Source of the DNA: Watersipora subatra
Lineage: Eukaryota > Bryozoa > Gymnolaemata > Cheilostomatida > Watersiporidae
Direction of reading: 5' to 3'
Assembly: GCF_963576615.1 (NCBI RefSeq)
Contig: NC_088713.1
Coordinates: 40,093,776-40,157,775, forward strand
DNA: 64,000 nucleotides
Within the stretch, counting starts at the first letter, position 1, and every line of letters begins with the position of its first letter. The position numbers were made by a program, and so were the translations under genes. The notes below the pieces were generated by a model. The model did no database searches. It saw nothing but the letters and a program-made list of their open reading frames with translations, and was not told where the DNA came from. Below are positions 5,941 through 64,000 of the stretch, in pieces.

Positions 5941-5953
5941 GGGGAAGGAGAGA
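5941..5953 (+). other. Polypurine tract
   Basis: GGGGAAGGAGAGA directly abuts the 3' LTR, the expected place for plus-strand priming. Confidence 0.85.
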
Positions 5954-34029: not shown

Positions 34030-34234
34030 AGGAAGTGAGATAAATAGAGTAAAATATGAGAACATTAGTTTCAGTTTTTGTATGAAAGAAGATTATTCGG
34101 ATATCCTGAAATTGCTGCAAATCGAATGCTAATCTGTGACATCATTGGTAGATGACTTTCTAGTCTTGCTAGAAATTTATATGAAGTTATGAAAAAAGAT
34201 TTTGCTAGGAGGAAAAAAGCAAAAAGATTTCTGA

Positions 34235-36647: not shown

Positions 36648-36682
36648 TTGTAGCATTCTGCTAGAATATCAGAATGCTACAA
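36648..36682. repeat. Perfect hairpin in the 3' flank of unit 1
   Basis: TTGTAGCATTCTG (36648-36660) and CAGAATGCTACAA (36670-36682) are exact inverted repeats with a 9-base loop. More partial copies of the 'agaatgcta' and 'tattctgctattc' text follow to about 36770. Unit 2 has a shorter form at about 42926-42960. Confidence 0.75.
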
Positions 36683-38037
36683 TACGTAGCTTTCTGCTAG
36701 AATAGCAGAATGCTAAAAAAATGCTCGCTAGTAGAATAGCACTCGGCTATTCTGCTATTCCAGCTTTTTCTAGGAAACAAGTAAAAATATTAATTTAAAT
36801 TCAAATTTAAAGCTTGTCACCCCTCATCTATATATCAGTGATCGCAATGATAACTCGAAAGCTTATTATCCAAAAGAAATTACCATCTCTCGCCAGAAGA
36901 AAGAAGATAACTCCTAGGGAACAATGGTAGTTGCTGAAGGTATATACCTACATCAACACTGGTGTGAGATGGTTTAAAATTGTAACTGCAAGAATAGCTG
37001 CTAGGATAGTATGCTATTATAGAAGCTATTCTAACAGCTATCGCAAGCAAAATGACTCTTTGAAATTCTCTACAGATGCCCTGTAAAATTATACATGACA
37101 AAGTGTCAAAATCCATTTATCATAAAGTATGGCACAGTAATCCCTTGCTACTTTGCGGCTCACTCTTCCTAGTTTCAGTGCTTTGCGGTTAATGACAGTC
37201 AACGAAAAATTTAAAACGCAAGAAAATTAATTGAAATCCAACATAAAAGAACTAAAATGCATGAATACCCATGCAAAGAATACATAGTATTTTTAATGCT
37301 GACACAGGAGAAGCTTCCGTGAGCATCGGTGTGCAAGCGGCAGTCATTGTTTGCTATTTTTGTGCAGCGTTATGCCTTTTAAATGTGTGAGTGAAAAGTA
37401 CTTGTTAAACCGTTCAGTGAGCCTCTTAAGCTTCTACTACTTTCAATATCGTGAAATGAACTTAAAAAATTAAAAGAAATTGCTTACAAGTTAATTAAAA
37501 AGGTGTGTTTACTATATATGATAAAGGCACTGCCAAAGGTTATACCTTTTCTCATGTTTACGAACATGTTATGTCCTTCCCACAGAAAATCAAGTTAATC
37601 ACAAGTACAAATATTTAGACTAGAAAAAGTTCAAACTGTGCCCGTACTACATAAAATCATTCTTTTGCTTAAAGTACTAGAATTGAATTTTAAATATGAA
37701 CTGAAAGTCAATAAATATAAATTTAATGTAATTATCTTATAAGACATAAATACATGTTTAAAAATCAGTATAATTGTACTGGTGTAGAGATTTTGGCTCA
37801 CACACATGCTCTAAAAACTAGCCTCTATTTTGAAAACTTTCGTATATCGTGAGAGATGCCGGTCTCTATCAAACGATAAAAGTGAAGTAGTTATGTATAC
37901 AGTGAATATTCACTTAGTCCTACATGCATCTATATGCTTGGAGTTATCTTCTTTTAATGATATTCATTTGAGACAGTAATTACTCTATTGAAGACAAAGA
38001 AATTAATCCAATAACAAAGTTTAATACATTGAACTCA

Positions 38038-38043
38038 TTTATT
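38038..38043 (-). terminator. Likely poly(A) signal of the downstream caspase copy
   Basis: AATAAA on the minus strand, 122 bases past the stop codon at 38165-38167. It lies next to the TTAA (38045-38048) that is the empty counterpart of the piggyBac site in unit 2. Confidence 0.5.
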
Positions 38044-38164
38044 ATTAAGCAAGTGTTTTCATAATGTAGAGTGGAAACAGTAACATGTTCATTATTACAT
38101 GGCTTCTGTTAATGCGCCACCAAACATGCTGTCATCCCGTGTCAACAGACCATACCCATTCTGA

Positions 38165-38221
38165 TTATTGCGTATCTTTGTTAACCCCAATCAAGGCAAA
38201 CGCAACAGAATTTACCATCAA
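38165..38221 (-). CDS. Downstream caspase copy, last exon
   Basis: Acceptor ...CCTCACAG, then 18 codons including VNSVAFAL (compare the VN-x-x-VA helix in caspase p10) and a TAA stop. The usual p10 end (a 'LTR-x-LYF'-like strand) is absent in this frame, but a similar-looking segment (GLLTRDDSMF) is open in the next frame just after the stop. Confidence 0.6.
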   Translation of the reverse strand: MMVNSVAFALIGVNKDTQ

Positions 38222-43700: not shown

Positions 43701-44245
43701 ACTTAAAAAGGTGTGTTTACTATATATGATAAAGGCATTGCCAAAGGTTATACCTTTTCTCATGTTTACGAACATGTTATGTCCTTCCCACAGAAAATCA
43801 AGTTAATCACAAGTACAAATATTTAGACTAGAAAAAGTCCAAACTGTGCCCGTACTACATAAAATTATTCTTTTGCTTAATGAACTAGAACTGAATTTTA
43901 AATGTGAACTGAAAGTCAATAAATATAAATTCAATGTAATTATCTTTTAAGAAATAAATACATGTTTAAAAAGCAGTTTAATTGTAGTGGTGTAGAGATT
44001 TTGGCTCACACACATGCTCTAAAAACTAGCCTCTATTTTGAAAATTTTCGTATATCGTGAGAGATGCCGGTCTCCATCAAATGATAAAAGTGAAGTAGTT
44101 ATGTATACAGTGATTATTCACTTAGTCCTACATGCATCTATATGCTTGGAGTTATCTTCTTTTAATGATATTCATTCGAGACAGTAATTACTCTATTGAA
44201 GACAAAGAAATTAATCCAATAACAAAGTTTAATACATTGAACTCA

Positions 44246-44251
44246 TTTATT
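44246..44251 (-). terminator. Displaced poly(A) signal of the upstream caspase copy
   Basis: AATAAA on the minus strand, the counterpart of 38038-38043. The piggyBac element separates it from its stop codon (47740-47742) by about 3.5 kb, so the ROCO-caspase transcript must either read through the element or end within it. Confidence 0.45.
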
Positions 44252-44530
44252 ATTAACCCTATGCGTACCAAGACCGACATTTGTCGGTTTACGAGCAATG
44301 TCTCAGCGTACCAAAACCGACAAACCCGACATTTTTGCCGTTTTCGATAGACCTTTTTTAAAACGTTTTATTTATTTTAAAATTAACGTTAAAAATTAAA
44401 ATTAAAAATTTGAGCAGTTTCAGTAAATTTTTTAATACTGTTTTGACGCTATAAATAATAAATTTTATGCGCATGTGCAAAAAGAACACGTTGTAAAGAT
44501 TGGATCTTTCTTTATGGAAAACTGATCAAC

Positions 44531-46195
44531 ATGGACGGACGTGATAATTTGAGCTCGGCTAAAAAAATTTGTTTAGAGGATGATATCGACTGGTTCGAAA
44601 GTGAGGAAGAGGATTTCAGGTCAGAAGAATGTGGGGAAGATGATGAGAGTGAAAAAGAAGATCGACAGAGTGAATCTGATGACGAAAGTGAGAGTGAAAC
44701 GACCGACGTTGAACCAGGGAGTAATTTCGGATTTCAAAGAGGAGCTGATCTAAAACCGAAAGAACTGCATTTTGATGAGAGCTTGGCAGGTGTACAAAGT
44801 CGAATTACTGGACAGATAAGTATTTTCAATTATTTACAGCTTTTTATTACATCGGCCATCATGAATGTTATAGTTAACGAGACAAATAGGTATGGCCTTC
44901 AAAAACATGGCGATGCATGGGAGTCTGTCGATGGCAAAGATATTTGGCGAGTTTTTGGTTTAGTTTTGCTCATGGGTATTGTCAAGAAGCCTACTTTGGT
45001 GTCGTATTGGTCTACCAATCCGTTATTATCAACGCCAATGTTTAGTAAAATGATTTCGAGGAATAAGATTTTAATGGTTTTGAACAGTTTGCATTTCACT
45101 GACAATTCGGAAAACCCTGATGGCAATAAGTTATTCAAGCTAGGAAATGTTTTTACCATGATATCTGACCGGTTATCTTCTGTTTTGCTGCCTGGTAAAT
45201 TTATATCTATAGATGAAAGCTTGCTGGCTTGGAAAGGACGGCTCAGCTTCAGGCAGTATATTCCATCTAAAAGATCTAGATTTGGAATAAAGCTATTTGC
45301 TCTCTGCGATGCTGTCTCTGGCTATGTGCACAAGCTGTCTGTGTACATTGGTGATGAGCGAGAACAAGCCGAAGGAACTGGTAGAGGAATCACTCACAAC
45401 ATAGTGATGAAATTAATGAATGGTTTGCTTAATTCGGGTCGTTGTTTATATATGGATAATTATTATAATTCGCCAGAGTTAGCAGCTGAACTTATTAAAA
45501 ATAACACTCATGTTTGCGGAACTCTGCGTGCAAACAGAAAAGGTGTTCCTAAAGATTTGAAAGTTTGCAATGGAAAAGCTATTAAAAAAGGTGAAACAAC
45601 AAGCTTTTCTAATGGAGAAAGTATGATTGGCTGTTGGAGAGATAAGAAATATATTTCTGTAATTTCAACTATGCATAAAAACTTGGATGTCGTAGATACA
45701 GGCAAAGTAAACTATAAAGGGGATAAAGTTTGCAAACCAGCTGCTATTTTGGATTACAACCGATACATGGGAGGAGTTGACAAATCTGATCAAAATTTGC
45801 ATTATTATAATGCTGCGCGTAAAACCATGAAATGGTACAAAAAACTATTTTTCCATTTATTAGATATTTGTGTGTACAATGCAGCCATTGTTTATAGAAT
45901 CCGTAGCGGTTGTAAAATAACTGACTTAGAGTTTCGACAGAAATTAATTGAACAAATATTTGAATACACTGGATCTTGCCGCAAAAACACTGTTCCCCGC
46001 GCTTCAACTTCTTCCGCTCATCGATTAGTGCTAAATAGTCCAGGAAAAGGTAAACGAGCTAAATATAGAATTTGTAGGCGCTGCCCAAAGCGAGCTAATG
46101 ACAACACCCGTAAGCGAGACGAAACTAGATTTAAATGCCAAGCATGTGGAGTACCTTTGTGCGAACCCTGTTTTGAGCCTTACTATGCTAAATAA
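44531..46195 (+). CDS. piggyBac-family transposase
   Basis: 554 residues, single exon, ATG start, no breaks. It catalyses cut-and-paste transposition at TTAA. Residues 1-60 are acidic, as usual for the family. The core (about 95-455) includes 'NETNRYG', 'YWSTNP', 'MISRNKI' and 'LHFTDN'. The three catalytic Asp are at about 228 (FISIDES), 309 (LYMDNYY) and 417 (GGVDKSD). A C-terminal Cys-rich zinc-binding domain has the pattern C515-x2-C518 ... C536-x2-C539 ... C544-x2-C547 (counted by hand). Length and order match active family members, so it may still be functional. Its own promoter would lie in 44257-44530. Confidence 0.95.
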   Translation: MDGRDNLSSAKKICLEDDIDWFESEEEDFRSEECGEDDESEKEDRQSESDDESESETTDVEPGSNFGFQRGADLKPKELHFDESLAGVQSRITGQISIFNYLQLFITSAIMNVIVNETNRYGLQKHGDAWESVDGKDIWRVFGLVLLMGIVKKPTLVSYWSTNPLLSTPMFSKMISRNKILMVLNSLHFTDNSENPDGNKLFKLGNVFTMISDRLSSVLLPGKFISIDESLLAWKGRLSFRQYIPSKRSRFGIKLFALCDAVSGYVHKLSVYIGDEREQAEGTGRGITHNIVMKLMNGLLNSGRCLYMDNYYNSPELAAELIKNNTHVCGTLRANRKGVPKDLKVCNGKAIKKGETTSFSNGESMIGCWRDKKYISVISTMHKNLDVVDTGKVNYKGDKVCKPAAILDYNRYMGGVDKSDQNLHYYNAARKTMKWYKKLFFHLLDICVYNAAIVYRIRSGCKITDLEFRQKLIEQIFEYTGSCRKNTVPRASTSSAHRLVLNSPGKGKRAKYRICRRCPKRANDNTRKRDETRFKCQACGVPLCEPCFEPYYAK

Positions 46196-47619
46196 ATTTC
46201 CAAATTGTATTTAAAATAATTTAGTTTATGCAAATGCTTTGTTGTGTTGTTAGCTATTGTACATACACTTGCTGAAATGTCATGATATATTGTAGTTGTT
46301 GTGCATTGCTATGTTGTATTTGTTGCCCACGGCCCTCTTCAGGGCCACATATAATCAAAGAGTTCAGTTCTCATATTGTTCTGCCATCTGGCAGGATTTC
46401 TCCATCATTTGCCGTTTCTGTTCATAATAAATGTTGCTTCCTGTTTTTTGCTGCTTCACCAACTGTGTGAATACAGGCTCACCACTCAATTCTTCTTGTG
46501 CACAACCAGTTAACCTTTGCTGCAGCACACATGCATCCATGCGATCAGTTTGCAAAATTGTTACATGAATCTATAGTTTCAAGAAATGCATATCAATCTG
46601 ACAGAAAAAAATAATAACTGAATATATAGATTTGAAGTTGCAGTGTTTGCAAGCTGCCCGGAGGAAAAAATCTCAGTCTGTAGGAAAATATTTCAGCTTT
46701 TAGATGCATATTCATTTGCAGTTTTATATAAATTTGCACCAGAGTTTGAGGGGCCATGTCCGGTAACTGCAGCACTGCTCGTCGCCATGGCGTCAGGAGC
46801 ATTTCGTAGGTCTGCACCCGCGATGCACAGGGGCACCTAACTACACTTTTGATGTGCTTGGACAACCCATTTTTTTTGCAAACTCTTGTATAAATATGAC
46901 ACCATGCAGATGCTTATCATGAACCGTTTTTAGCAGAGATAATGCTTCTAAAAGTGTATTTGTTATCGAAATTTCATGGTAGAGGGGTGACAACTTCGTC
47001 GAATCTGGCTTGTGACTAAAGTGTTCCCAGTCGATGTACAGGGAATATATGGCTGTTTGTTGAAAAATTTCTAAGCTTTCAAATGCATATTCATTTACAG
47101 CTCCATGCGAATTTGCATGCGAGTTATAGCCAAGTTTAGACGACCATGTCGCGCCTCCATTATTCGCAGGTTGTTAGAGTCTTGCGCCGAAAATTTCGAG
47201 AGGCGTTCCTGCATTGCAACGGAGCTTGTAACTCCGCGTTCAATGCTCTTCGACGATCAGTTTTTTTTGCAAAACATTGTGAACATATGACTCTATGCAA
47301 GTGTCTTTAGTACAACATGGTCAATTACTTATATCAATTAGAAAAATACAATTGAAAATGGCATACAAAAATAAAAATTTCATCGCTTCAGCAAATCGAC
47401 ATTTTTGTTGGCAAATATTTGTGAGTTATCTACACAGAAGAAGCATCAGCTTGTAGAGAAAATTCTCAGCTTTCTTATGCATACTAATTTATGCAACTGC
47501 CACAATTTTGTTGTAAGTTACTGCAGTTTCTATGCGTTCATGTCGGCAGCTCAAATCGCGCAAGTTATTGCACGGTACTCTAGTGGTTTTTCCATCGTAA
47601 CCGCGCGGTCGCTAAAGGG
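46196..47619. repeat. Non-coding right arm of piggyBac with three diverged tandem repeats
   Basis: 1.4 kb without a gene. A unit of about 380-395 bp recurs three times with decay: 'atgcatattcattt' at about 46704 and 47083, 'atgcatactaattt' at about 47477; 'ttttttttgcaaa' near 46869 and 47261. It has more GC and CpG than the host DNA around it. Such subterminal repeats could be transposase binding sites. Confidence 0.6.
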
Positions 47620-47739
47620 TTAAGCAAGTGTTTTCATAATGTAGAGTGGAAATAGTAACATGTTCATTATTACATGGCTTCTGTTAATGCACCACCAAAC
47701 ATGCTGTCACCCCGTGTCAACAGACCATACCCATTCTGA

Positions 47740-47796
47740 TTATTGCGTATCTTTGTTAACCCCAATCAAGGCAAACGCAACAGAATTTACCATCAA
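47740..47796 (-). CDS. ROCO-caspase, last exon
   Basis: 57 bp, 18 codons and TAA, identical in protein to the last exon of the downstream copy. It includes VNSVAFAL and ends VNKDTQ. As in the other copy, the expected final p10 strand is missing from this frame but a look-alike is open in the +1 frame after the stop. Confidence 0.6.
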   Translation of the reverse strand: MMVNSVAFALIGVNKDTQ

Positions 47797-50700
47797 CTGT
47801 GAGGACAATGATAAATGAATATCATGCCTGAGCAAAGCAATTATTGGGATCTCATCAAGTTTTCAGGTCTAATTTTAATTGTGTTAGGCTCATGCTTAAT
47901 ATTATAAATAAGCAATTTACAACACTAAAACAAGCATAAACTTTACCTGGAACATAAATTTACTCTTACCTGTCTCTCAAACAAAGTCTTAAGGTCTCGA
48001 TGGCAGGCATGTTTGCAAAGGGACTCGACAATAGCATTAATAAACCAGGAGCCGAATCGTCGATTCCTATATGCCAGGTGACCTGTCACATTAGAATGGA
48101 GTTTAAGTGTGTTATACTAGATAGGCTGGTGAACTGAAATCATTCTTAAACATAAGATGTGCTGAGCACTAAATGAGTATATCTCAAAATTTTTACTAGA
48201 GTTAAAATCAGCCTATTTAAATAGGCAAAGAAGTACATTATTGACCAGCAAACCTATTCTTAATCAACTGTCAGTTCTTATGTTTACCAGGAAAACTGGC
48301 TTTCCAAATTAGCAGGTCATCAGTCTCCAAAACTGCATGAGACCTTGACAGGTGCATCAGGGCAGAGGATGGGCTTGGCTCAGAAAGTGTGGTTGGAGTT
48401 GCGGCCAAGCAAAGAGGAACTCCACTGGTAGGTAAGCTAGTAACTGATGGGAGAGAAAAACCTGGATGAGATGATGAAGTTAAAGGTTGAGCGTCAGGCA
48501 CCGTGACTCTATCCCGCAATCCTACAATAGATAAAGAATTGAAAATATTTATCTCAAATGTGTTATAAATATTGTTTGTTGAGGTTTAATCATTGATTAT
48601 AGTTTTACTGCATTTAGTAACCAATAATATGGAAAGATAGAGTGGAAACAATTTGATTTACAATATATAAAACTGTAATGGTTTAGTATGGTCAGATGCT
48701 TATTAATAGATGACTGTTTCATGTCAACTACATCTATGGGTAGCGCAATGCAAGACAGACTCGCTTTTACAAACAGCTGCAGAAACCAGGTAACTCACCA
48801 CCAGAGCATGCCTGAACAATAAGTAGTTTTGGTTTTCTGGCCATCGCTGGAAAGTTCTGAGCTGATAAGGCTTTATTAATGTCAGTTCTCTGCACCATTC
48901 TTCCATCAGTCCCAGATATGCCTGTCTCAGAACCATGACTGAGGATGATTAATACAAACATTCCGTAATTTACATGCTCAGGTCTTTCGGTTTCATCGCT
49001 GATCACCTCCAACATTCGCTGTAAGACAACCATTAAAAGCTTAAAGTTATGTAATAGGTTTAAATAATGCTTTTCACAAACTGATTAGTGACACTGTTAC
49101 AAAATATATACTATTTGGTTCTAATTTTGAAATTCTAGTAAAATATTGGAAGTGCTTTGCAGCAATATCTGAGATAAATATTAACTATTTTACCCTATGC
49201 TAACCTTTGACAAACTTTATTGTATTTTTATATACCATTGGGCAAGGCCTTGACCGGGATTTTGTTGGTTTTAATTTAAGCCAACAGCACACAACCTATA
49301 GACCCTTGTGTGTCAATTTGCAACGCAAATTTCTAGACGGTCTTCTTGACAAAAATCCGAGAGCATGTTCGTAGGTGATAATTATTTTTAATGCAATTAG
49401 CAGGTGAGTAGTTGAGAAACTGGTTTTCAGAAACCAGATAGAGTTTTGAAATAGAATACTTTTGGTGACCTGATGAAAACAGGGAGCAAATATGTGTGAA
49501 GTTTGAATGAAATCAGATAAAATATGTAAAAGTATAATGCTTATGCAGACACACACACACACACACCCACACATTCACACACCAACACACCCACACGTTC
49601 ACACACCGACACACCCAAACACCTAGAAACACAAACACATGTGCATGCTCAACACATGCACACAAACACATGCACACAAATGCAAGCATGCACAAACGCC
49701 ACAAAGTACATACAAACACACTAATACCTACACCATTGTACACACTGCACTTGACACATACACTAACACTCGTACTAATGCATGTGCTAACTTATGTACT
49801 AACAGACTAATACGCACAAACTGATTATCAATGAGAAATTTTTTTACATCAAACTTCTTTACACATATTATCTGCAGCCATATTGAAAGGGTTATGATAC
49901 ATTTAAGATTTCATAGCATTAAAATGCTGTGAGGTCATAATATTTCAAACATGCAACAACAATAATTGAAATATAATATATATATTATATATATAATATA
50001 AATTATATATAATATATATATAAATATACTTTAATACTTTAAGGCATTTATTTTTCATATATCAGTGGTTATTTGTGAAATTTAAACAAAGTTTTCAATA
50101 ATACCTTTATTTTAAACTATTGTTGAACCATATAAACATATTTCACTACACACCTGGCCAGAGAGATTTGCCTCACTAAAGCAAAGAAATCCAAGTTTGC
50201 CAAAAAGAGCGAAGATTCTCTGACCGTCCAATGTAGAGCCTTGTCTGTAATCTGAAGTTCCATCAGGATATCTGAAAGTTGTGTTGTTAACAAGAAGGCA
50301 GTGTCCTCTCATAGTGCTCATTCGGTAAACCTGTTTTAATAAAAGACAAAAATAGAACCCACGACCAGAGATGTTAAGGACTTAGTTCAATTCACACGAA
50401 TTTGGTCACAGCTAATTATAACTACATGGAATGACCTTTTCATTGCTTAGTACATATTAAACTAGTCACTATTTTACAGGCGAAAAGGACTCACATCATC
50501 TGAGTAAAAGAGATCTTTTACAGAAGTTTTAGAGCAAAGTTTAACAGTCAGTTCCTCAGAACCCTGGTCTAAAGTGTCAGAGAGCGCGCTGTCACTTGAG
50601 TCACCATCTTGCTCAGGTTGAACAGGTATTGTAAGCCTTTCTTGTGGTTGATGAACCGGTGCCACAACCTGCTCTGTAGCTGTAAAATTATATGCTAATA

Positions 50701-53700
50701 TGTTATCATGTGTTTATGAAAAATAAGTTGAACAAAATACCAAACTGTATTAAGAGCATTCTCACAAAACTTATAGGCAACATTAAAGTATTTGATACAA
50801 TGATATATTATACTTTTGCATAACTAGTACTTCACGTTTTAACAAATTTGTTCAAATCGTCAAAAATTTTAAACTTGTCTGATATTATAAAGATTTTACA
50901 TGAGTAATAAAAACAATGATACACTTCTATCAGTATTTAAATGTAAATGAAAATGGTGTTTCTTATTGATTGTATTTATTAAATACTGAAAAGCAGTAAG
51001 AAGTCATCAAGCATGCTACTTGCTTCCCATAAATTGTTAGTCTTAAACATTTTATTCAGGCTTCATTGTCAGCAGTTTTTTTCGCAAGCAACAGAAAATT
51101 AGAAACATTTAAAAACTAACCTGAAAGTGCCAAAAAAGTAGGCTTAGTTATTACACTGACGAATAAATTTTTTAACATGACTTTCATCTTTTTATTTTAA
51201 AAATTGATCATTAGCTAGACCTAAGTAATCATTAATAATTAACTACTAGCAGTTTTATTATTGAAATATTTCATCTTTCAGAACTTTGTAGGCAGTATCT
51301 GGACAATTAGTGAAATACATGACAAGCCATTGATAGTGAATATCACATAGTCATCCAAAGTTTTGATCACTCATCTCAAGATTTACTTAGCCTCAATTCA
51401 ACTATTTAGTTTGCTATCACCAAAGATAAATACTTTTTGAATGCAGGTCAGTGACCAAGTGTTACTAGAGCTGTAAAACATGTGCTGGAATATAATAGCA
51501 AGAAAAAATTATTTACAAAGCATGTGTACCTGCGGATGCCACAGATAGAGTGTCTAGATAGTCCTGTATGATACGTTTCTTTTTTTCATCAAGCTGATGA
51601 CCTAAGTATAAATAGGTAAAGCATTAATGAGGCATAATCAACATGTTAGTAGAGAATAAACAACTTCAGTAAATTGAGTTTGCTGACATTGTAACTCACA
51701 AGGTCTCATAAGGGCTAATGGTACACTCGACTTTTTAATTCCAGTTTCCTCTGCTTGCTTTTCACAAATCAGCTTCTCAACACCCGAATATTGTTTGATT
51801 GTGAGTGCTTCACCATCTGGACAGAACCAATCTGGATTAACAAAATATTCTGGTTTAGGGTCTTTTAAAAATAGGCAATGACCACAAAAAATGTGAATAT
51901 ATGGTTCACTTGCGACCCAAGCAGTTGAAAGCAGCTTCAAGATGCTATTAGTTGCATTTTCGAGTTGTTTCCACATATCTCCAAAACGAGCTTCATCAGA
52001 ACCAGCCTGCAGAGTAACTTTCTGGCCACGGACATCATGTACCAAATTTACTTGCAACCCATCATGATAGACCACAGCACCATTTTTAGCAATCTTCTGT
52101 GTGTTTATGTCATTTGAAAGCTTGTTTAGCATGGCAACTGTCATTAGTTGGAACCCGTAGTTGGGGAGTGGAAGTCCTCTCAACTTGATGTGTAACTGAA
52201 GCTGAAACCTTCTCTCTTCCCCAAAAAGCTCGTCGATGCTTTTTGTTGCAAAATATGGTATCGCGTACCCGTATTTATGCTTTTGAGCGTTCAACACTAT
52301 GGGACCTTGTACAATCCAAAAGCTTTTTAACAATTCAATGGCAATGTCAGGTTGAAAGTCTGATTCAACTGTGAGGAGATGGTGCAATAGTGCCTCTTCA
52401 AGGATGCCATTTCGGGTGAAGTTTTTGACAAACTGTTTATATAAAGCAAAACTGATGGATTTCCCTTCAAAATCAAACTCACGAAAATTTTCTGCTCTTT
52501 CTTTCCAAAGACAGTCTGACTGGTGATGAAAGAGAATTGAAATCATTTTAGTCATTGCTGGGATGTCACGGAATATGTAACCTTTTAAAGACTCTATTGA
52601 CTGGAACCAAAGAATATCACCTATGTTGTGCATGTAACTCAAAATATTCAGTGACCTCTCTCCAGGAAAGCTAGCCAGAACCTCTGACACAGTGACTAGA
52701 GGTTCTGTCAAACTCTTTGCAACAAAGTTGCACATACGATTCCATTTTTGTGGTAAAGAAACCTTGTACTTCCTGCAACAAATATCAAGAGCTTTTCTGA
52801 GATCTTCTATTTGATGTGACTCTTTGCCAAACACAAATGTGTTCTCTTCATTAAACACATCAGCTCCCTTGTTGGATAAAAATTTGATTTCATGGAGAAC
52901 CTGCTTTTTTGCTCTACTTGGTAGTTGCTCAGTTTCGAGCATTTCATCTCGAAGTTTCTTAGAATGATTGAACAGACAATCTTTGTAACTCTGTAGTTCT
53001 GAGTCTGAAACTTTATCAGAGTGAGTGAGAACTAACAGTGGAGACTCTACTAACAAAGGACATGCAAGATAGATGTGAGCCAACCAATTCCAGCAGAGTT
53101 CTTCAGTAGCTGCTTTTTTTCCTTCTTTTTTAGCCAAAGATTTAAATGCATTCAAATTAACCACGATCAACGGAATGTTGCGTTCCTTTAGAATGTACCG
53201 ATAGGTAATATGATAGACTTCGTGTCCCCCGTGATCAATCATCTTGGCGTATGAATTGTTTAGCTGTACTCCTTGTATTTGAAATACTTTTGTCGTTTCA
53301 TCTAGCATGCTGGTGTCAGAGCGGTTTGTGAGTACACGGCTTTTTGACTGCAGAGATGCAATGAGGCTTGTTTTCCCTGACATTGAATGGCCAACTACCG
53401 AAACAGGAACAATCGTGAGTTCAACTTGTTGTTCTAATGCACGGTCTTCAAAAAAGGATTTAATTGCTGCCAAACCTTGCTCACAAACACCATAAGGAGG
53501 AGAAACTAGATTAAAGCAGCGATCGCAATTAAGACTAGTGAGATGTTGAAGATTCAGAATTTTCTCATCAATCTTTGTCAGGTTACGGTTGCCAGAGATG
53601 TTTAGTGTACGTAGATTCTCCATTTTAAATACACAAAATGGAATTTTGGTTAGCTTGTTGTCACTGCAGTCTGACTCCTCCAACTGATCACAATTACGCA

Positions 53701-56700
53701 GGCTGCAATCAGACACCAATATATAAAATGAGCATTATTTGTGTTCAATCTAATTGTGAAAAAGTTGTAGCTTGTTTGTCAAACAGAAAAATTTAAGTTT
53801 CATATGTATATGTTGAAGTATTGTACTTCAATTATATCAGCTAATAAGATCTCTTTATATAATTTTTGCCTTTTCAATGCAATAAAACGAAAGTGTCTTT
53901 TTGTTGGCATCCAAATCAGTTAATACTACATGTAGATAAAAGCTGCAACATTTTTTTTCTACAGAAATATTGTTTAGGGAGGAAGTATTCCTATCAAAAT
54001 TTAGCTCAGCTGTGTTATGTTATTCAGAACATTGTTCCATGACTATTCTTACAACTGAAACAAATCAAGGAAGCCTCTCTTTTCTCAGTTATATACTACT
54101 ATGTAGAAATTTGACTAGATAGCTACTTTATAAAGTTTATTCCTGCATTTATTAAGTTTTTAAATTTTGATATTGCAACATTTATTATGGAAAGGACACT
54201 CTCATTTGTTTTTATTATTTGTAAATTAAACAAACATTTGTTAGCGTAACTATCGTTACAAGCAGATAACTAAACATCCATTTTAAATTCTTACAGATGA
54301 ACCATATTATTCTAATAAAAGTGCAACAAGTTGTTACTCACCTTAGTCCCTTGATAAACTGATTAGAAATTAACTGCCTAATTATCTGGTTATATTAATA
54401 ATTGTCATTAAATTGGTTTCTGCTGATAAATTAAGGGATTTTTGGACCGTGGGCAAACTAATAATTTGAAGAAATTAGTCAAGTTAACTAAGACAATACT
54501 TTGAGATTTTAGTTGATACTTCAACCATATATAAGTCATGCTCAGCGTATAGTACGACTATCTATAGCTACATATCTCATATAAACTGAGGTTATACTAT
54601 GTATCTCCTCCATGATAGTCTGATTGCTGTTAGTAGCCAAAACTATTATTAATTGTTTTAAATATAAGAATTTCATTGGATGTAATTGAGAAATAAGCAT
54701 AATACTCTATATGAATTTTTGCCGGGAAGTTTAATGTAAATTTTGGCAGTTTTAAGTTTAATACTTGATTTAATGGAAATTTTTAAATGAGTTGATTATA
54801 CATGTATAGCCAAATTCTCAAATAAATATTAAAAATATTCTCATATTATTTACCAAATGTAACAAAGGTATTAAATAGGTTTTAACAGACATGTCTGCTA
54901 AACTTGAACTGTTCTTCTTTGTGATTAAACTATTGGGGAATGTTTGTGTTGGTCTGAAAATTACATTATAGTGATAAGCATGTTGCATTTATTTTTAATT
55001 CAATTAAAAATTACGAATTAATCTGGACGCTAAAAAGATAATGTAATGTGCCAGTGCATGACAAGCTTATGTAGCCCTATAGGAAAATAACTTGCATCAG
55101 TATTCTTCAACAGGCTCCAATAGTGTGCTGTGTGGTGCAAGCCAGACTTAACTTCTACATGAGGCCATCTCAACAAAAGTATACATTTTAGTTCGTTGAC
55201 TGAATTTTCCAGCAGAAAATGAGTTCAATTCAAGAAAAATTATGTCAGGAACAAAGATGACATTAGTTAAGGACAACAATAGAGAAACCAGTCGCATTGA
55301 AATCCTATAATAACCAGCAGATATAGTTAATCTTTCACCTTAAAATAGGGCTGCAATAGAGTCTTTACAATAAAATTAACTTTTGTTTATGAAATTTTAA
55401 CAAAACTTATGATCATGGATGGGAGAGGATTAAAAAGAGAATAGAATAACTTGACAATTCAAAAACTGCAATAGTACTTAATTTGTCAGAAGATGTTGAG
55501 GTGAAAAAAGCATTGTCTTTGGTTTGACCAATGCAAAGTATTACAATAATGCAAACATGAGCATTTTAAACACGCACGGTGCCTCCATAGTTAACTTCAC
55601 TGAGTTGTAAATCTGGTTTAACTTAGTAGAGTGAGTAGATTATGACAGTATCTTACTAGTCATCTTAAACGTTATTGAAGTTTGTTATTTATAGTTTAAA
55701 TTTTCACAAAGTCTGATTTCATTTGAAGCATTAGGCTTTTCTTTCCAGTTTTCTAGTGTGACTCTATTATTAAAGGTTTGGCAGTGCGATCTTTGAGAGA
55801 AAATCAAACCTTTTTTCAATAATCATTGGCAAACAGATTCAATGATGACAACTCAAATACTTCACAAACTCTTGAGTGCTTAGCAGTGTCTCAGACAAAT
55901 AAGCGACCTGTGATGCAGGTCGTGCAATAAGCACCATTGATGTTATTTAACTAAACTTTTCTCCAATGAACTCTACAGTTGTTCAAAATAAAGTTCATTA
56001 GTAAATTTGTTTTGTGGAACAGCAAAATCATGTCACAACTGTTTGTTGCATTTGTATCGAACTATCATCTATATAACCCGCAACTGAATCGCAACCCCAT
56101 CAAGTCCGGTAAGAAAGCATGTTATATCAAAATTTGCATCTTCAATAGTGTAATGTACAAGCTGTAGTCAACTGCTCCATGAAATCATGTCTCCAAAATA
56201 TACAAGCTAATTATTTGACTAAAGTTTTATCAACAACAAGAGCTCAGTCTTAGATAAATGGTGTAAAAAAGAACTGTGAGATTTAATGAAAAAGAAATAA
56301 TGAAAATAACTGCACTGACAATATATGATAGATATAATATAATTTTATATGTATAAATATGATTTTATTAATACTTCAAATAATAAGAGGCTTGCAAAAT
56401 TTTTATTTACAACGCAAGTAAATTTTGTTTATAAAATTTTAGCTGAGTTGATGAACATGTAGAACAGAAGATTAAAAAAGAAATAGAATAAGTTGTCAAC
56501 TGAAAATCTATAATCAAGATTTATTTGTCACCAAAACTGTTTAAGAGCAGACAAAACATTGAACTTTGGCTTACTTATTCTAGGTATTACAGCACAAAAC
56601 GTATGAAAACTTAAAAAAAACACTGTCTCTCTAAACTTAAGGTCACGCAGTTAGTTAAACTGGTCTAGTAAGAAGTAATGGGTAGATGATGCTAACAATT

Positions 56701-59700
56701 AGAATCTCATATATGCTTGTGTTTTAATGTTTATCATTTAAACTTTTGGTTTCTAACAAAGTCTGAATTCATTCAACCATTTTACATTTCTTTCATAGAC
56801 TCTGAGCTAACTGCATGAAATGGAGTCATTTTCTTTATTAGTAGAAAAGCAAAATATTTTCATCGCAAAATGCCTTTTTTATTCAAGGATCACAAATCAA
56901 CTATTACATCATCACTTAAGCACCTGATGGTGTTTCGGAAAAAAATAGCACTTTTTTGCCATGCTGATGCTATAACCATTAATTTTTTGGCGTATACCGA
57001 CTTCAATTTACAAAGAAATTAAAGTTCTTTCTCGAATGAAACAAGTGTTTGTTAGCGATCCCCTTTTGTGTTCCAGCAAACCATGCCACAACATTTATTG
57101 AAATTTTTACAGAGTGATCATCTGCAGGAATCACAGACATTCTTTACAGCAACTGTTGTGGTTTTTTTATGCCAACTTAATTTACTTGTTCGTAACATTT
57201 AAACTTTATATAAAGTACTTTTACGATCAAGCTACGTTACTTTGTGATAATTTTGGGTGAAATATATTTTCGTATACTTTTTCCAGGCTGGACTTTGGTA
57301 AATCTGAAAACAGTGCTTACAAAGTGTCCGTCAAATAAGGACTTGAAGAGTTAGCAGTAAGAAAATGTTTGTGCCAAAGCAATAAAGGTCAGTGGACATA
57401 ATATAATGAACACTTACTACAAATATTTTATTATTGATAGAATGATAGCCGGAAGCATTACCGGTCTGTAGATGAAACTCACCTTTTTGGTAGAGAGACT
57501 AGCCCGCATCCCTTAAGGTTCAGCATTTTTAAGTTACCAAGATCACCAAACACATCTGGTAGTTCGCCAGAAAAGTCGTTATAAGAAAGGTCAAGCTCTT
57601 CTAGTTGAGTCAACTTTGAGAAGCTGTAAACCATAAATAAAGACAAAAACAAGAAATATCAAAGGTTCCAGGAAACAGTTTGGCATGGTGAGTGTTGAAG
57701 GCAAAACGTAGCAATAAATTGTACTCTATTCTAACAAGTATTGTCAATGCAAACAAATGCACACCTTCAAAATTTGACATTTTTCCCAAAAACGTTTATT
57801 GGTAGTTAGCACCAGACAACTCTTTTCTAAATAATAATAATATTAACTGTTTACCTATATCCCAAGTATATATACCCAAGTATTATTGATGCAAAAATGT
57901 GCATTATCAAATTTTGCAATATTTACAGAAAACGGTTTATTGGTACTTAGCATCAGGCGAACCTTTTCACAATAATAACTCGAAATTCCCTGTCATACAG
58001 CCCACGACCAAAGTGATATTGGAAAAAGGAAAATGTACTGATGGTTGATAAATGCAATATTAACAGTCAAATGGCACTGCAGTGCAACAGGATAACTGCA
58101 ATGGTAGATGTAATGTACTGAGTGTTATTATGTACAACAAACAGCAATAATGAAAGGAAAAGATTATATGTTTATATCTCTCCCCCTTGCGCAATAGAAG
58201 AAATGCAATATTAGAAGTAAAATGCACTGATCTTATTAGAATAACCAATATTATTAAGGTAGTAATACAGTAGTAATAACAAACCAATGCACAATTTTGT
58301 TTACATTTCAAAACGTCATAGCTAACAATATCAAGCAGTTGTGATATTTATATAGATTTTTAGAAAATCTATTTAACAAAACTATTTAGAAAAAATAATA
58401 ACGTACTGCCCAACATCGGTCACTATATACTTCGATCTTGTAATATCGAATGCTTATTCTTATAATTAAATCTTAAAAAATCGAATAATTATTCCTATAA
58501 TTAAATCTTATAAAATGGAATAATTATTCTTATAATTAAATATTGTAATAATCTCATAAGAATCGTCAGAAAAAATATCATTGCCATTTCCTTTACTTTT
58601 ACTGCTTTGGACATCAGTTGAAATACCCAAGTACTCCTAAAAGTCCAAAATGTCAGTTACTTTGAAATCGGCAAAAAAGAAACGATTGCTTTTTTAGTAC
58701 TTCTACGTTAATTATAGAAACCTTCGGCAATTTGCCAATGCTATAGACTGGTTAAATGTGCACAGCTTTTTTGTGTGAAATGCTCACGACTTAATGGTTC
58801 TATTGTCTGTCACTCGGCGTTTCGTTTGCCGGTCTTAATTTTGATAAAAATAAGGCTTGTCAAGTTTTAATAACGATTTCAGGCCGAATTAATCTGTCTA
58901 TTTATGTATAATCCAATCAGATGGGTAAGGTTTAGGAAATTTTCTACAAATGATAAAGATTTGGTAACAAATTTAAATAGATTTATATGTGTTTTGTATT
59001 GTTATTATACTTAAACGACTCCATTGAAACATGGTTAAATTCGTTGATGAGATTTCGGTACAAAGGTTTGCGATGTCCGTTAATGAATAATTTTCGTGAG
59101 TTGTGTGCACATATGCATTTATCATAAATCTCCCAAACAATCGCTTCGCTCGTGTTTGGTCATCGGATAACAATATTAACATATAACCTACATTAACTAT
59201 TAACATTTAGTCTTTCAGTAATAAATGTCATCTGCAAGTATAGAAGCCTATGTAAAAAAAATCACAGTAGTAAAGACGAAGATAAAATGGAAATAAACCT
59301 GAATCCAGTTACTGATAAGGAAGTGTTATGACTACTATTATAGCCAAGAGCAAAATTTGTTGTACTTAAATTGTCTGAAAATTAAAAAATACATCGTGAA
59401 GGATCTGAAAAATAGATGATTATTAAAAAAAAATTAAAAAATGAAAGAAATAAATTCCACATAAAAAGTAAACCATAAACAAAATCATCTACTTTGGATG
59501 AAGAACAGAGGCCTTCAATGGTAACCTCCCATATAGTTTTTAAGTTATTCGTTCAGTATAATTGTCAATGCTTACAGCGACTAGGCATCAGCAAAAACTT
59601 TGTTTTGTTACCGCTGTGATATGGCACAAAAATTGACGTTAGTTGCTAGTTATAATTAGGTTTCTATCATGGTCTTGTAATCTTATGCCAAAATTCTTTT

Positions 59701-62559
59701 TGATAATTATGAGTAAAATATATTCTCATACGCTTCCTACAAGCTGAAGTTTGATAATTCACAAAACAGCCTTTACAAAGGAATATATCAAATAAGACCT
59801 TGAAAAGTGAGCAGTAGAAACGTGTTTGTAACAAAGCAGTAAAACTCAGTAAGCATAATATAATGAACACTCACTACAACCCTTTCACTGTTGATACAAT
59901 GATAACTGGAAGCATTATCAGTCTGTAGATGTTACTCACCTTTTTGGTAGAGAGTCTAGCTCGCATCCCTGAAGTGTCAGCTTTCTTAAATTACTAAGAC
60001 TACCAAATACATCTGGTAGTTTGCCAGAAAAGTCGTTATAAGAAAGGTCAAGCTCTTCTAGCTGAGTCAGCTTTGAGAAACTGTAAATCATAAATAAGGG
60101 CAAAAAATAAAAATATCAAAGGTTCAAAGAAACAGTTTGGTATAGTGATTGTTGAAGGCAATACGTAGCAATAAATTGTACTCTATTCTAACAAGTATTG
60201 TCAATGAGAACAAAAATGCACACCTTCAACGATTGCAATTTTTCCCAAAAAAGTTTATTGGTAGTTAGCACCAGACAACTCTTTTCAAAATAATGATAAT
60301 ATTAACTGTTGACCTACATCCCAAGTATATATACCCGAGTATTATTGATGCAAAAATGTGCATTATCAAAGTTTGTAATATTTACAGAAGACGGTTTATT
60401 GGTACTTAGCATCAGGCGAACCTTTTCACAATAATAACTCGAAATTCCCCTGTCATACAGCTCACGACCAAAGCGATATTGGGAAAAGGAAAGGGTACTG
60501 ATGTTTGAGAAATTTAATATTAGCAGTAAAATGGCACTGCAGGGCAATATGATAACTGCAATGGTAGCTGTAATGTACTGGGTGTTATTATGCACAAGAA
60601 ACAGCAATAATGAAAGAAAAAGATTATATGTTTATATCTCTCCCCCTCCCGCAATAGGAGAAATGCAATATTAGAAGTAAAATGCACTGATCTTATTAGA
60701 ATAACCAATATTATTAAGGTAGTAATACAGTAGTAATAACAAACCAATGCACAATTTTGTTTACATTTCAAAACGTCATAGCTAACAATATCAAGCAGTT
60801 GTGATATTTATATAGATTTTTAGAAAATATATTTAACAAAACTATTTAGAAAAAATAATAACAGTAACATACTGCCCAACATCGGTCACTATATACTTCG
60901 ATTTTGTAATATCGAATGTTTATTCTCATAATTAAATCTTATAAAATCGAATATCTATCCTTATAAATAAATCTTATAAAATCGAATAATTATTCTTATA
61001 ATTAAATATTGTAATAATCTCATAAGAATCGTTAGAAAAAATATCATCGTCATTTCCTTTACTTTCACTGCTTTGGACATCAGTTGAAATACCCAAGTAC
61101 TCCTAACTAAAAGTCCAAAATATCAGTTACTTTGAAATCAGCAAAAAAGAAAAACGATTGTTTTTTCAGTACTTCTACGTTAATTATAGAAACCTTCGGC
61201 AATTCGCCAATGCTATAGACTGGTTAAATGTGCACAGCTTTTTTTATGTGAAATGTGCTTGACTTAATGGTTCTATTGTCTGTCGCTCGGCGTTTCGTTT
61301 GCCAGTCTTAATTTGGATAAAAACAAGGCTTGTCAAGTTTTAATAACGATTTCAGGCCGAATCAATCTGTCTATTTATGTATAATCCGATCAGATGGGTA
61401 AGGTTTAGAAAATTTTTTACAAATGATAAAGACTTGGTAACATCTTTAAATAGGTTTATATGTGTTTTGTATCGTTATTATACTTAAACGACTCCATTGA
61501 AAAATGGTTAAACTCGTTGATGAGATTTTGGTACAAAGGTTTGCGACGTCCGTTGATGAATAATTTTTGTGAGTTGTTTGCACATATGCATTTATCATAA
61601 ATCTCCCAAACAATCGCTTCGCTCGTGTTTGGTCGTGGGATAACATTATTAACATACAACCTAGATTAACTACTAACCTTTAGTCTTTCAGTAATAAATG
61701 TCCTCTGCAAATATAGAAACCTTTGTAAAAAAATCACAGTAGTAAAGACGAAGACAAAATGAAAATACACCTGATTCCAGTTACTGATAAGGAAGTGTTA
61801 TGACTACTATTATAGCCAAGAGCAAAATTTGTTGTACTTAAATTGTCTGAAAATTAAAAAACACATCGTGAAGGATCCGAAAATTAGATGATCAATAACA
61901 AAAAAATTAATAAAAGAAAGAAATAAATTCCACATAAAAAGTAAACCATAAACAAAATCATCTACTTTAGATAAAGAACAGAGGCCTTCAATGGTAACCT
62001 CCCATATAGTTTTTAAGTTATTCGTTCTTTATAATTGTCAATGCTTACAGCGACCAGGTATCGGCAAAAAAATTGTTTTTGTTACTTTTGTGATTTGGCA
62101 CAAGAATTGACTTAAGTTGCTAGTTATAATTAGGTTTCTATCAAGGTCTTGTAATCTTATGCCAAATTTCATTGTGATAATTCTGAGTAAAATATATTTC
62201 ATACGCTTCCTACAAGCTGAAGTTTGATAATTCACAAAACAGCCCTTATAAAGGAATATATCTATTAAGACCTTGAAAGGTTTGCATCAGAAATTTTTAC
62301 TGTTTTGTAACAAAGCAGTAAAAGTCACTAAGCATAATATAATGAACACTCACTACAACCCTTTCACTGTTGATATAATCACAGCTGGAAGCATTATCAG
62401 TCTGTAGATTTTACTCACCTTTCTGGTAGAGAGTTTAGCTCGCATCCCTGAAGTGTCAGCTTTCTTAAATTACAAAAACTACCAAGTACATCTGGTAGTT
62501 CGCCAAAAAAGCCGTTTTCAGAATAGTCAAGTTCTTCTAGTTGAGTCAACTTCGAGAAG
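47740..62559 (-). CDS. LRR-ROC-COR-caspase gene (5' end outside window)
   Basis: Eleven exons on the minus strand: 62419-62559, 59940-60080, 57483-57623, 51700-53702, 51530-51601, 50495-50679, 50154-50330, 48799-49018, 48288-48521, 47970-48082, 47740-47796. Every junction has GT-AG borders, and the phases (2, 2, 2, 1, 1, 0, 0, 1, 1, 0) agree without adjustment, giving about 1160 residues. Order: LRRs, ROC GTPase (P-loop GHSMSGKT, switch DHGGHE, THSDK), COR, acidic Ser-rich linker, caspase p20 and p10 with catalytic His and Cys. ROCO proteins are GTP-regulated switches and caspases cut after Asp. I infer a receptor-like protein in which GTPase state or oligomerisation activates the protease. 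Alternative: two genes in tandem, which the unbroken phase and lack of a start or stop between them argue against. Confidence 0.8.
47970..48082 (-). CDS. ROCO-caspase, p10 exon
   Basis: 113 bp encoding (G)HLAYRNRRFGSWFIN ... LFERQ, the small subunit core. It differs from the downstream copy by one residue (His for Tyr after the Gly). Confidence 0.85.
48288..48521 (-). CDS. ROCO-caspase, interdomain exon
   Basis: 234 bp between catalytic Cys and p10. Ser/Thr/Pro-rich, with VPD-A and ETD-D as candidate self-cleavage sites. Ends FPG. The acceptor leaves two bases that complete a Gly codon with the previous exon. Confidence 0.8.
48799..49018 (-). CDS. ROCO-caspase, catalytic exon
   Basis: 220 bp with the catalytic His (LIILSHGSETG) and Cys (LLIVQACSGG). 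The pentapeptide is QACSG where most caspases have QACRG or QACQG. The donor GTGAGT overlaps the codon after CSG. Confidence 0.9.
49545..49760. repeat. CA-rich tract in a caspase intron (unit 2)
   Basis: (CA)n with ACACAAAC and ACACCC variants in the intron between the first two caspase exons. The counterpart of 39960-40225. Confidence 0.8.
49975..50032. repeat. TA-rich microsatellite present only in unit 2
   Basis: A near-pure run of (TA)n with ATAAATT breaks, in the same intron as the CA tract. Unit 1 has only a short AATATAATTT at the matching place (near 40420), so the run expanded after duplication. Confidence 0.8.
50154..50330 (-). CDS. ROCO-caspase, first p20 exon
   Basis: 177 bp encoding VYRMSTMRGHCLLVNN, then DYRQGS-x-LDGQRI and ANLSGQ. 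This is the start of the caspase fold: 'RG-x-CL-x-NN' is typical of caspase strand 1. Phase 0 at both ends. Confidence 0.9.
50495..50679 (-). CDS. ROCO-caspase, acidic linker exon
   Basis: 185 bp. Encodes a Gln/Pro- then Asp/Ser-rich segment (HQPQERLTIPVQPEQDGDSS) ending KDLFYSDD, which joins VYRMS of the next exon in phase 0. Donor is GTGAGT after GATGAT. Asp-rich text before the p20 start could be a prodomain cleavage region. The duplication carrying the downstream caspase copy does not include this exon. Confidence 0.8.
50680..51529 (-). other. Intron between the linker exons
   Basis: 850 bp, AT-rich, phase 1. It ends in TTTTACAG before 50679. I see no other exon or element in it. Confidence 0.6.
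51530..51601 (-). CDS. ROCO-caspase, small linker exon
   Basis: 72 bp, phase 1 on both sides, between acceptor TTATACTTAG and donor GTACAC. Encodes (C)HQLDEKKKRIIQDYLDTL plus VASA, a charged amphipathic helix. Found from the phase match to both neighbours and the helix-like coding; support is weaker than for the larger exons. Confidence 0.65.
51700..53702 (-). CDS. ROCO-caspase, LRR + ROC GTPase + COR exon
   Basis: 2003-bp exon, about 668 residues, open throughout. Residues about 10-70 are LRRs (DCSDNKLTKIPF, LRTLNISGNRNL). The ROC GTPase follows: P-loop GHSMSGKT (53369-53392), switch II IDHGGHEVYH, a base-recognition motif at LTHSDK in place of the classical NKxD. The remaining 350-400 residues fit the COR domain (for example FVKNFTRNGILEEALL, then a half-conserved tail). 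In known ROCO proteins COR mediates dimerisation and controls the GTPase. Acceptor is ...CTGATTGCAG. Its first base completes an AGC Ser codon with the LRR exon's last two bases. Confidence 0.92.
53703..57482 (-). other. 3.8-kb intron between the LRR array and the ROC-COR exon
   Basis: No further LRR exon is visible. It contains a diverged direct repeat of about 1 kb spacing: 55380-55700 against 56410-56760 ('ttttgtttatgaaattttaa' against 'ttttgtttataaaatttta'). Its part from 55533 on is nearly identical to 63707-64000. Confidence 0.6.
57483..57623 (-). CDS. LRR exon, copy 1
   Basis: 141 bp, phase 2 at both ends. Encodes two LRRs: LTQLEELDLSYNDFSGELP and LGNLKMLNLKGCGLVSLP. Acceptor GGTTTACAG, donor GTGAGT. 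Closest to the ROC-COR exon, to which it splices in frame. Confidence 0.88.
59940..60080 (-). CDS. LRR exon, copy 2
   Basis: 141 bp, phase 2 at both ends. LTQLEELDLSYNDFSGKLP and LSNLRKLTLQGCELDSLP. Lies 2457 bp from copy 1 with matching introns, so it arose by duplication of exon plus intron. Confidence 0.88.
62419..62559 (-). CDS. LRR exon, copy 3
   Basis: 141 bp, phase 2 at both ends. LTQLEELDYSENGFFGELP and FCNLRKLTLQGCELNSLP. Lies 2479 bp from copy 2. Three changes in the LDLSYNDFSG loop (to LDYSENGFFG) alter the likely exposed face of the repeat. Further exons probably follow beyond 64000. Confidence 0.85.
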
Positions 62560-63706
62560 CTGCAAATCATAAATAAAGACAAAAACAAGAAATATCAAAG
62601 GTTCCAGGATACAGTTTGGTATAGTGATTGTTGAAGGCAATACGTAGCAATAAATTGTACTCTATTCTAACAAGTATTGTCAATGCAAAAAATGCACACC
62701 TTCAAAATTGGCCATTTTTCCCAAAAACGTTTATTGGTAGTTAGCACCAGACAACTCTTTTCAAAATAATAATAATATTAACTGTTGACCTATATCCCAA
62801 GTATATATACTCGAGTATTATTGATCCAAAAATGTGCATTATCAAAGTTTGTAATATTTACAGAAAACGGTTTATTGGTACTTAGCATCAGGCAAACCTT
62901 TTCACAATAATAACTCGAAATTCCCCTGTCATACAGCCCACGACCAAAGTGATATTGGAAAAAGGAAAAAGTACTGATGGTTGAGAAATGCAATATTAGC
63001 AGTCAAATGGCACTGCCGTGCAATAGAATAACTGCAATGGTAGATGTAATGTACTGAGTGTTATTATGTACAACAAACAGCAATAATGAAAGGAAAAGAT
63101 TATATGTTTATATCTCTCCCTCTCCCGCATTAGGAGAAATGCAATATTAGAAGTAAAATGCACTGATATTATTAGAATAACCAATATTATTAATGTAGTA
63201 ATACATCAGTAATAACAAACCAATGCACAATTTTGTTTACATTTCAAAACGTCATAGCTAACAATATCAAGCAGTTGTGATATTTATATAGACTTTTATA
63301 AAATCTATTTAACAAAACTATTTAGAAAAAATAATAACAGTAACATACTGCCCAACATCGGTCACTATATACTTTGAACTTGTAATATCGAATGCATATT
63401 CTTATAATTAAATCATATAAAATCCAATAATTATTCTTATAATTAAATCTTATGAAATCGAATAATTATTTTTATAATTAAATATTGTAATAATCTCATA
63501 AGAATCGTCAGAAAAAATATCATCGTCATTTCCTTTACTTTCACTGCTTTGGACATCAGTGGAAATACCCAAGTACTCCTAAAAGTCCAAAATGTCGGTT
63601 ACTTTGAAATCGGCAAAAAAGAAACGATTCCTTTGTCAGTACTTCTACGTTAATTTTAGAAACCTTCGGAAATTCGCCATTGCTATAGACTGGTTAAATG
63701 TGCACC

Positions 63707-64000
63707 AGTGCAAAGTATTACAATAATGCAAACATGAGCATTTTAAACACGCACGGTGCCTCCATAGTTAACTTCACTGAGTTGTAAATCTGGTTTAACT
63801 TAGTAGAGTGAGTAGATTATGACAGTATCTTACTAGTCATCTTAAACGTTATTGAAGTTTGTTATTTATAGTTTAAATTTTCACAAAGTCTGATTTAATT
63901 TGAAGCATTAGGCTTTTCTTTCCAGTTTTCTAGTGTGACTCTATTATTAAAGGTTTGGCAGTGCGATCTTTGAGAGAAAATCAAACCTTTTTTCAATAAT
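63707..64000. repeat. Near-identical copy of 55533-55826
   Basis: 294 bases to the window edge match intron sequence 8174 bp away, with one difference noticed (C/A near 55729 and 63903). It shows a large, very recent duplication, or an assembly artefact, that extends outside the window. Confidence 0.9.

Follow-up and report, generated by a model that had tools for sequence, protein, structure and literature searches.

Does any animal gene place a sensor, a nucleotide switch and a death protease on one polypeptide chain? A locus of the bryozoan Watersipora subatra (NCBI RefSeq assembly GCF_963576615.1, contig NC_088713.1, forward-strand positions 40,093,776 to 40,157,775) raises this question. 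In this stretch of 64,000 nucleotides, hereafter the window, the minus strand between 62559 and 47740 carries eleven open exons that would encode, in order, leucine-rich repeats (LRRs), a ROC GTPase, a COR domain, an acidic linker and a caspase. In our reading they form a gene whose product, a single-chain ROCO-gated caspase, would serve the animal as a one-component death or immune receptor; we give this reading a probability of about 0.68. If one transcript spans the chain, an animal sensor, GTPase switch and caspase would be united without adaptors such as FADD, ASC or Apaf-1. ROCO proteins, whose function is poorly understood, would then be tied directly to cell death, caspase activity would be a natural readout of the ROC-COR state, and an animal locus would be tied to the bacterial LRR-ROC-COR-effector systems.

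An exon chain from LRRs to caspase

The eleven exons, read from genomic sequence alone, have AG/GT borders and compatible phases. Three tandem LRR exons of 141 nt, each an open frame of phase 2-2 with a donor score of 9/9, lie at 62419-62559 (two LRRs; donor AAGGTGAGT), 59940-60080 and, adjoining the ROC exon, 57483-57623. They are followed by a large exon of 2003 nt (51700-53702; 667-aa open frame) for the last LRRs, the ROC GTPase, COR-A and COR-B. A small exon of 72 nt (51530-51601), placed by its splice borders and phase, is of phase 1-1, and the reading frame is kept whether it is included or skipped. The acidic linker exon (50495-50679; 185 nt, 61 aa, no Met) was recognized by its codon score. 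Five caspase exons complete the chain, which from the ROC-COR exon onwards encodes 1019 aa. The 5′ end of the gene lies outside the window, placing any N-terminal domains and the full number of LRR exons beyond view.

Pfam searches gave LRR_8 on the joined LRR part (E = 1.5e-24) and Peptidase_C14 over p20 and p10 of the ROC-COR-to-stop product (E = 3.4e-33). The preliminary description of this DNA had proposed such a single-strand chain of eleven exons with matching splice phases, including LRRs and an acidic linker followed by a caspase p20/p10 with both catalytic residues, and these elements were all confirmed. The junctions that it singled out, 51700/51601, 51530/50679 and 50495/50330, are likewise present, with AG/GT borders and compatible phases.

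A 23-residue LRR register runs unbroken across the LRR exon junctions and, judged by eye, across the 57483/53702 junction. The link from LRRs to ROC is therefore good, because the repeat register itself crosses the junction.

The ROC and COR domains

The large exon contains the motifs GHSMSGKTS (P-loop), DHGGHE and THSD, which align to those of prokaryotic ROCO proteins. With its P-loop and switch motifs, the encoded domain can be assigned as the ROC GTPase of a ROCO protein. In a phmmer comparison with the Roco protein of Chlorobium tepidum (E = 1.8e-6), the alignment also took in a further stretch in COR, which was weak but collinear. A piece of the Chlorobium Roco was used to fetch 80 prokaryotic ROCO loci, and a profile made from 57 of these matched the window exon with E = 2.3e-11 and a probability of 97%, over 436 columns spanning ROC, COR-A and COR-B.

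A structure model of the exon product, built with 43 of the 80 prokaryotic relatives, had a mean predicted local distance difference test score (pLDDT) of 62 and a predicted template modelling score (pTM) of 0.60; an AlphaFold2 model made without relatives (mean pLDDT 33) was discarded. The top matches in a fold search with the former were LRR-Roc-COR and Roc-COR crystal structures (6hlu, E = 2.6e-15; 3dpu, E = 4.0e-15), and a COR-only structure, 3dpt, was also found (E = 1.8e-7). Because the model was built with these relatives, it is biased towards the Roco fold, and the profile comparison is the more independent test. Profile comparison and fold match together indicate a predicted COR domain directly after ROC, as in ROCO proteins.

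Other scores count against this assignment. The Pfam match to Roc (E = 1.3e-5 to 2.8e-5) falls just under the curated cut-off and that to COR-A (E = 0.03-0.07) below its own, and a second profile (E = 3.6e-9), made from 32 other prokaryotic ROCO frames, aligned to ROC but no further than the start of COR-A, which speaks against COR. The ROC and COR named in the preliminary description thus hold by profile comparison and fold match and fall short of the Pfam cut-offs. The C-terminal end of COR (FCGHC...P..YF...LIC...VPLALMRP) resembles by eye the Cys-rich end of a consensus sequence; the profile comparison did not align it, and we make no claim for it. Pfam scans of the part of the product inside the window gave no protein kinase domain of the kind that marks LRRK and DAPK, and no NACHT, NB-ARC or death-fold domain.

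The caspase

The module at the end of the chain, here caspase A, scores E = 1.1e-33 against Peptidase_C14 when taken alone. Its p20 begins in the exon at 50154-50330, placed by alignment to CED-3 and containing MRGHC, whose Arg we take to be that of the S1 pocket, and continues at 48799-49018 with the catalytic His (LSHGSETG) and catalytic Cys (QACSG). The exon at 48288-48521 covers the p20/p10 linker and the start of p10, that at 47970-48082 the p10 motif YRNRRFGSWF, and the last exon (47740-47796) ends with TAA at 47740. Among solved structures in the PDB the best relative is CED-3 (phmmer E = 7.7e-21), with an alignment that spans the catalytic His (LSHG) and Cys (QACSG); p10 (YRN...GSWF) is weak alone (i-Evalue 0.69). 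LETD and TVPD, between p20 and p10, are candidate processing sites read from the sequence, and SDTLD and YSDD in the acidic linker exon are possible caspase sites.

One gene or two

The junction between COR and caspase is the weakest link of the chain. Phases agree between COR and the linker exon whether or not the small exon intervenes, and the linker exon enters the caspase in phase 0. Under a codon model trained without the linker exon, its score of 0.33 exceeds those of all 218 background stretches (maximum 0.215), which are open, overlap one another, match the exon in length and avoid sequence masked as coding. Neither the linker exon nor the small exon contains a Met, and the linker gave no Pfam match.

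The alternative is a pair of adjoining genes. The first, for LRR-ROC-COR, would end after COR, at a stop at 51638 or in a subsequent exon; the second, for the caspase, would begin with an exon located at 51.6-50.7 kb or still further upstream, within the ROCO gene. Several observations favour such a division or weaken the case for one gene. The unspliced COR frame reaches the stop at 51638 only 20 codons past the COR donor, and AATAAA motifs follow at 51259, 51196, 51056 and 50980, although this intron is AT-rich and such motifs are often expected in AT-rich introns. Phase agreement at the junction alone would be a one-in-three coincidence; the codon score of the 72-nt exon is not separable from background (143 of 1955 stretches scored as high); and donor scores drop from 9/9 in the LRR exons to 7/9 in the ROC-COR and linker exons and 6/9 in the small exon. 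Plasmid and viral contig searches returned no close relatives of the 947-aa product. The caspase module has also been duplicated without ROC-COR (see below), which indicates that it is able to move as a unit.

A separate caspase gene would need a start of its own, and the linker exon, besides being in phase with COR, has no Met to provide one. Between 51699 and 50690, the interval that the search covered to the exclusion of sites further upstream, we found 20 candidate ATG-to-donor exons. Only two of these have a good donor (8/9); they are nested (51187-51121 and 51178-51121) and non-coding in composition (codon scores -6.5 and -6.0). On this evidence two adjoining genes appear improbable, and a single transcript across LRR, ROC, COR, linker and caspase probable.

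A proposed receptor mechanism

In a single-chain receptor the tandem LRR exons would supply the sensor, ROC-COR would serve as a nucleotide-controlled switch and oligomerisation device, and the flexible acidic linker would carry an initiator-type caspase. Binding of a ligand to the LRRs would alter the nucleotide or oligomer state of ROC-COR, and two caspase domains on partner chains would meet and be activated by induced proximity. The activated caspases would cleave between p20 and p10 (LETD, TVPD) and probably also in the acidic linker before p20 (SDTLD, YSDD), and the freed active caspase would start death or inflammatory proteolysis without an adaptor. The Chlorobium Roco, the relative that has been studied best, is described as dimeric without nucleotide or with GDP and monomeric on GTP (PMC5714945), so one cannot presume in which direction the switch works; the earlier proposal that ROC-COR dimerisation drives activation may be right in outcome.

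The same fused gene could have a function in neither immunity nor death, as a ROCO-regulated protease for development or remodelling, much as LRRK and DAPK are regulated kinases. Caspases have non-apoptotic roles. ROCO proteins likewise have non-immune ones, according to the account in PMC4104024. The tandem phase-2 LRR exons and the duplicated effector module, on the other hand, resemble fast-evolving receptor loci such as the brown-algal LRR-ROCO genes described in PMC11378527, and we consider the non-immune function unlikely.

The tandem LRR exons

A repeat unit of ~2.47 kb bears the LRR exon, and the window contains two full copies and part of a third. The three exons closely resemble one another in sequence, and as they are symmetric (phase 2-2), any number of them splices in frame. 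In the brown-algal LRR-ROCO genes, for which exon shuffling in the service of recognition has been proposed, LRR exons of phase 2 also stand in tandem, according to passages of PMC11378527; the algal exons are 72 nt long with one LRR each, whereas those in the window are 141 nt long with two.

The units between 57240 and 63705 are mosaics, in which the 5′ introns are 92-96% identical and the exon and 3′ intron down to 72%. Pair by pair, 5′ intron identity is 0.92-0.96. The intron directly 3′ has an identity of 0.72-0.77 in two of the three pairs, where it has diverged further than the exon, and of 0.90 in the remaining pair. This pattern suggests gene conversion or shuffling between units. We do not claim positive selection on the LRR exons: nonsynonymous divergence (dN) of 0.11-0.21 compares with synonymous divergence (dS) of 0.14-0.16, but the units are mosaic. 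At the window edge, 63704-64000 is 99.3% identical to 55527-55823 in the long intron of the gene, closer than other repeats here, and is evidently another recent duplication, running past the edge.

A second caspase module

Self-comparison revealed that 47620-50466 is repeated at 38045-40856, with all five caspase exons and without the linker and ROC-COR. The preliminary description mentions neither this second module nor the transposon that separates the two. The second module, caspase B (38165-40720, minus strand; exons 40720-40544, 39443-39224, 38946-38713, 38507-38395 and 38221-38165), matches Peptidase_C14 with E = 6.2e-35. Both copies show the features of metazoan-type caspases (C14), namely LSHG, QACSG and YRN, together with MRGHC in A and MRGCC in B; the positions in MRGHC/MRGCC and YRN presumably have their usual roles in the S1 pocket. 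The repeat belongs to a tandem duplication (34037-50466) of unit 34037-40856 and unit 40890-50466, whose breakpoint lies in the intron preceding the p20 exon and whose unit includes the 3′ flank. The second unit is split by a piggyBac-like element between the caspase copies (44253-47623, plus strand, including TTAA at 44253-44256 and 47620-47623; DDE_Tnp_1_7, E = 2.6e-88) with an open transposase reading frame of 577 aa at 44462-46192. The paralogous unit has a single TTAA, an empty site, at 38045-38048.

An insertion in one copy facing an empty TTAA in the other, with unit identity of 0.90-0.99 over much of the length, could also arise if caspase B were no true duplicate but an allele that the assembler had wrongly placed in tandem. 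Identity, however, peaks at 0.98-0.99 in the middle of the unit and drops to 0.83 and 0.92 towards its edges, with 0.815 in the outermost stretch (34037-34779), and synonymous divergence between A and B is 0.42 for the p20 exon and 0.10 for the remainder. This pattern is better explained by an old duplication whose middle has been homogenised than by a mis-joined haplotype, and we regard an assembly artefact as distinctly unlikely.

Over the whole module dN is 0.047 and dS 0.154 (dN/dS 0.30; Fisher p = 3.7e-5), and the exons contain no indels in 801 bases against 16 in 1975 bases of intron and flank (p = 0.0015). The two copies differ as a pair under purifying selection would, with a ratio that covers both jointly. 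The lack of exon indels speaks for B too, and conversion from A could contribute to it.

Whether B is served by the ROCO gene can be approached from the DNA around it. Directly upstream, 40890-44256 duplicates the 3′ flank, and no frame in it exceeds 77 aa; B thus has no visible first exon of its own and is likely served by the upstream gene. The simplest arrangement would make it an alternative terminal cassette, spliced from the linker donor at 50495 to the B acceptor at 40720, both of phase 0. B might instead be a separate gene or a decaying fragment unconnected to the ROCO transcript: it lies 10 kb downstream, past the piggyBac-like element, and its p20 donor (CAGGTTTGC, 6/9) is weaker. 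Decay sits poorly with an unbroken frame, conserved acceptor and donor dinucleotides and catalytic residues, and the purifying selection in the pair, and a separate gene with the flank copy and its lack of long frames, yet we see a substantial chance, well short of even, that B is unconnected.

With B as a cassette, the receptor would vary at both ends, with an expandable LRR array and a choice of caspase A or B spliced to one ROC-COR switch, and would be the animal equivalent of the bacterial LRR-ROC-COR-effector defence proteins. We offer this extended picture tentatively and think it rather doubtful. If one transcript spans the chain, the tandem LRR exons and the two caspase modules would offer a test case of how an animal receptor diversifies at the level of exons.

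Precedents for the architecture

The Chlorobium tepidum Roco (3dpu, 6hlu) presumably lacks a caspase, as its structure titles name LRR, Roc and COR only. It has the LRR-ROC-COR fold in common with the window gene and is the best structural match, with ~14% identity over the fold alignment.

A closer parallel in domain order is provided by the bacterial LRR-AP-GTPase(ROC)-COR conflict proteins, which, in the account of Kaur et al. 2021 (PMC8195603), carry one of at least 24 C-terminal domains, caspase included. They have N-terminal LRRs (rapidly evolving in theirs), ROC, COR and a C-terminal effector in the order predicted for the window gene; unlike them, the window gene is intron-rich, and its p20/p10 caspase is of animal type, with CED-3 as its nearest relative in the PDB. 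We searched for such a caspase fusion in our own prokaryotic samples. A regular expression for the caspase motif matched in 0 of 80 prokaryotic ROCO frames, several of which are cut by a contig end or early stop. In 32 further frames (from 33 loci with short flanks), Pfam found ROC, COR-A and COR-B in all 32, LRR in 30 and TIR_2 in 8; Peptidase_C14 was absent from the 25 most frequent of 74 families, and a few members could still contain it. Among the matches listed for 194 genomes of the phylum of Xenococcus, inspection by eye revealed no coincidence of the 60 COR-A places with caspase places. As our samples reproduced no bacterial LRR-ROC-COR-caspase, the bacterial precedent rests on PMC8195603. 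Wherever in the frame it stands, TIR_2 in 8 of the 32 LRR-ROC-COR frames points to effector swapping of the kind that Kaur et al. describe. In the first of these frames (L081, in a set running from L081 to L113) TIR_2 precedes TPR repeats and another P-loop region.

In animals, amphioxus has LRRs-caspase and TNFR-caspase hybrid genes, proposed by Zhang et al. 2008 (PMC2575513) as shortcuts from recognition to apoptosis. Passages of that paper describe complementary DNA (cDNA) support for TNFR-caspase and the identification of LRRs-caspase genes. As predicted for the window gene, animal receptor domains are joined straight to a catalytic caspase; no GTPase switch is described for these hybrids, and the terms GTPase and Roc occur 0 times in the main text of PMC2575513.

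The preliminary description had limited animal ROCO proteins to a kinase (LRRK) or death-domain (DAPK1) partner, which proved too narrow, since CARD, TIR, AAA, Ras-like and other partners also occur (PMC4104024). Animal ROCO proteins with TIR, death, CARD, AAA and further domains are on record for placozoa, sea anemones and Aplysia, as reported in PMC4104024, PMC5094078 and PMC9334734. The brown-algal paper mentions caspase 0 times, and a figure in it displays about forty animal ROCO domain combinations, one of which could be ROC-COR-caspase (PMC11378527). Passages of caspase papers on amphioxus (PMC3196919) and bivalves (PMC7836458) and of a paper on placozoan immunity (PMC6321704) name no ROC-COR-caspase, and none from an animal appeared in the literature searched, which comprised titles, abstract beginnings and passages, with subscription papers and supplements outside its scope. 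The description of this architecture as unrecognised in animals was overstated, since the amphioxus sensor-caspase hybrids (PMC2575513) and the bacterial LRR-ROC-COR-caspase (PMC8195603) are already published. Each half, and the bacterial whole, has a precedent, and the animal whole appears unreported in the literature searched.

Animal NLRs, inflammasomes and Apaf-1 work alike, with sensor repeats and a nucleotide switch controlling a caspase. The window gene differs in having no NACHT, NB-ARC or death-fold inside the window and a caspase predicted on the same chain, and is not a member of that group. Of the one-component, NLR-like death or immune receptor first proposed, the one-component part is consistent with the open LRR-ROC-COR-linker-caspase chain, and the NLR likeness does not extend to the NACHT or NB-ARC domain in the part inside the window.

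Other features of the window

A Gypsy-like retroelement with long terminal repeats (LTRs), evidently a recent insertion, occupies 1554-6142; its two LTRs of 189 nt (1554-1742 and 5954-6142) are identical, and its gag-like and pol-like frames are open. The regions 9042-12566 and 14975-20377 form a diverged duplication in pieces (73-84%), and the second copy's region contains a weak match to NAGLU_N at 18873-19145 on the plus strand (E = 0.003, below the cut-off). A short-period tandem repeat, with offsets of ~36 nt, follows at 20469-20857.

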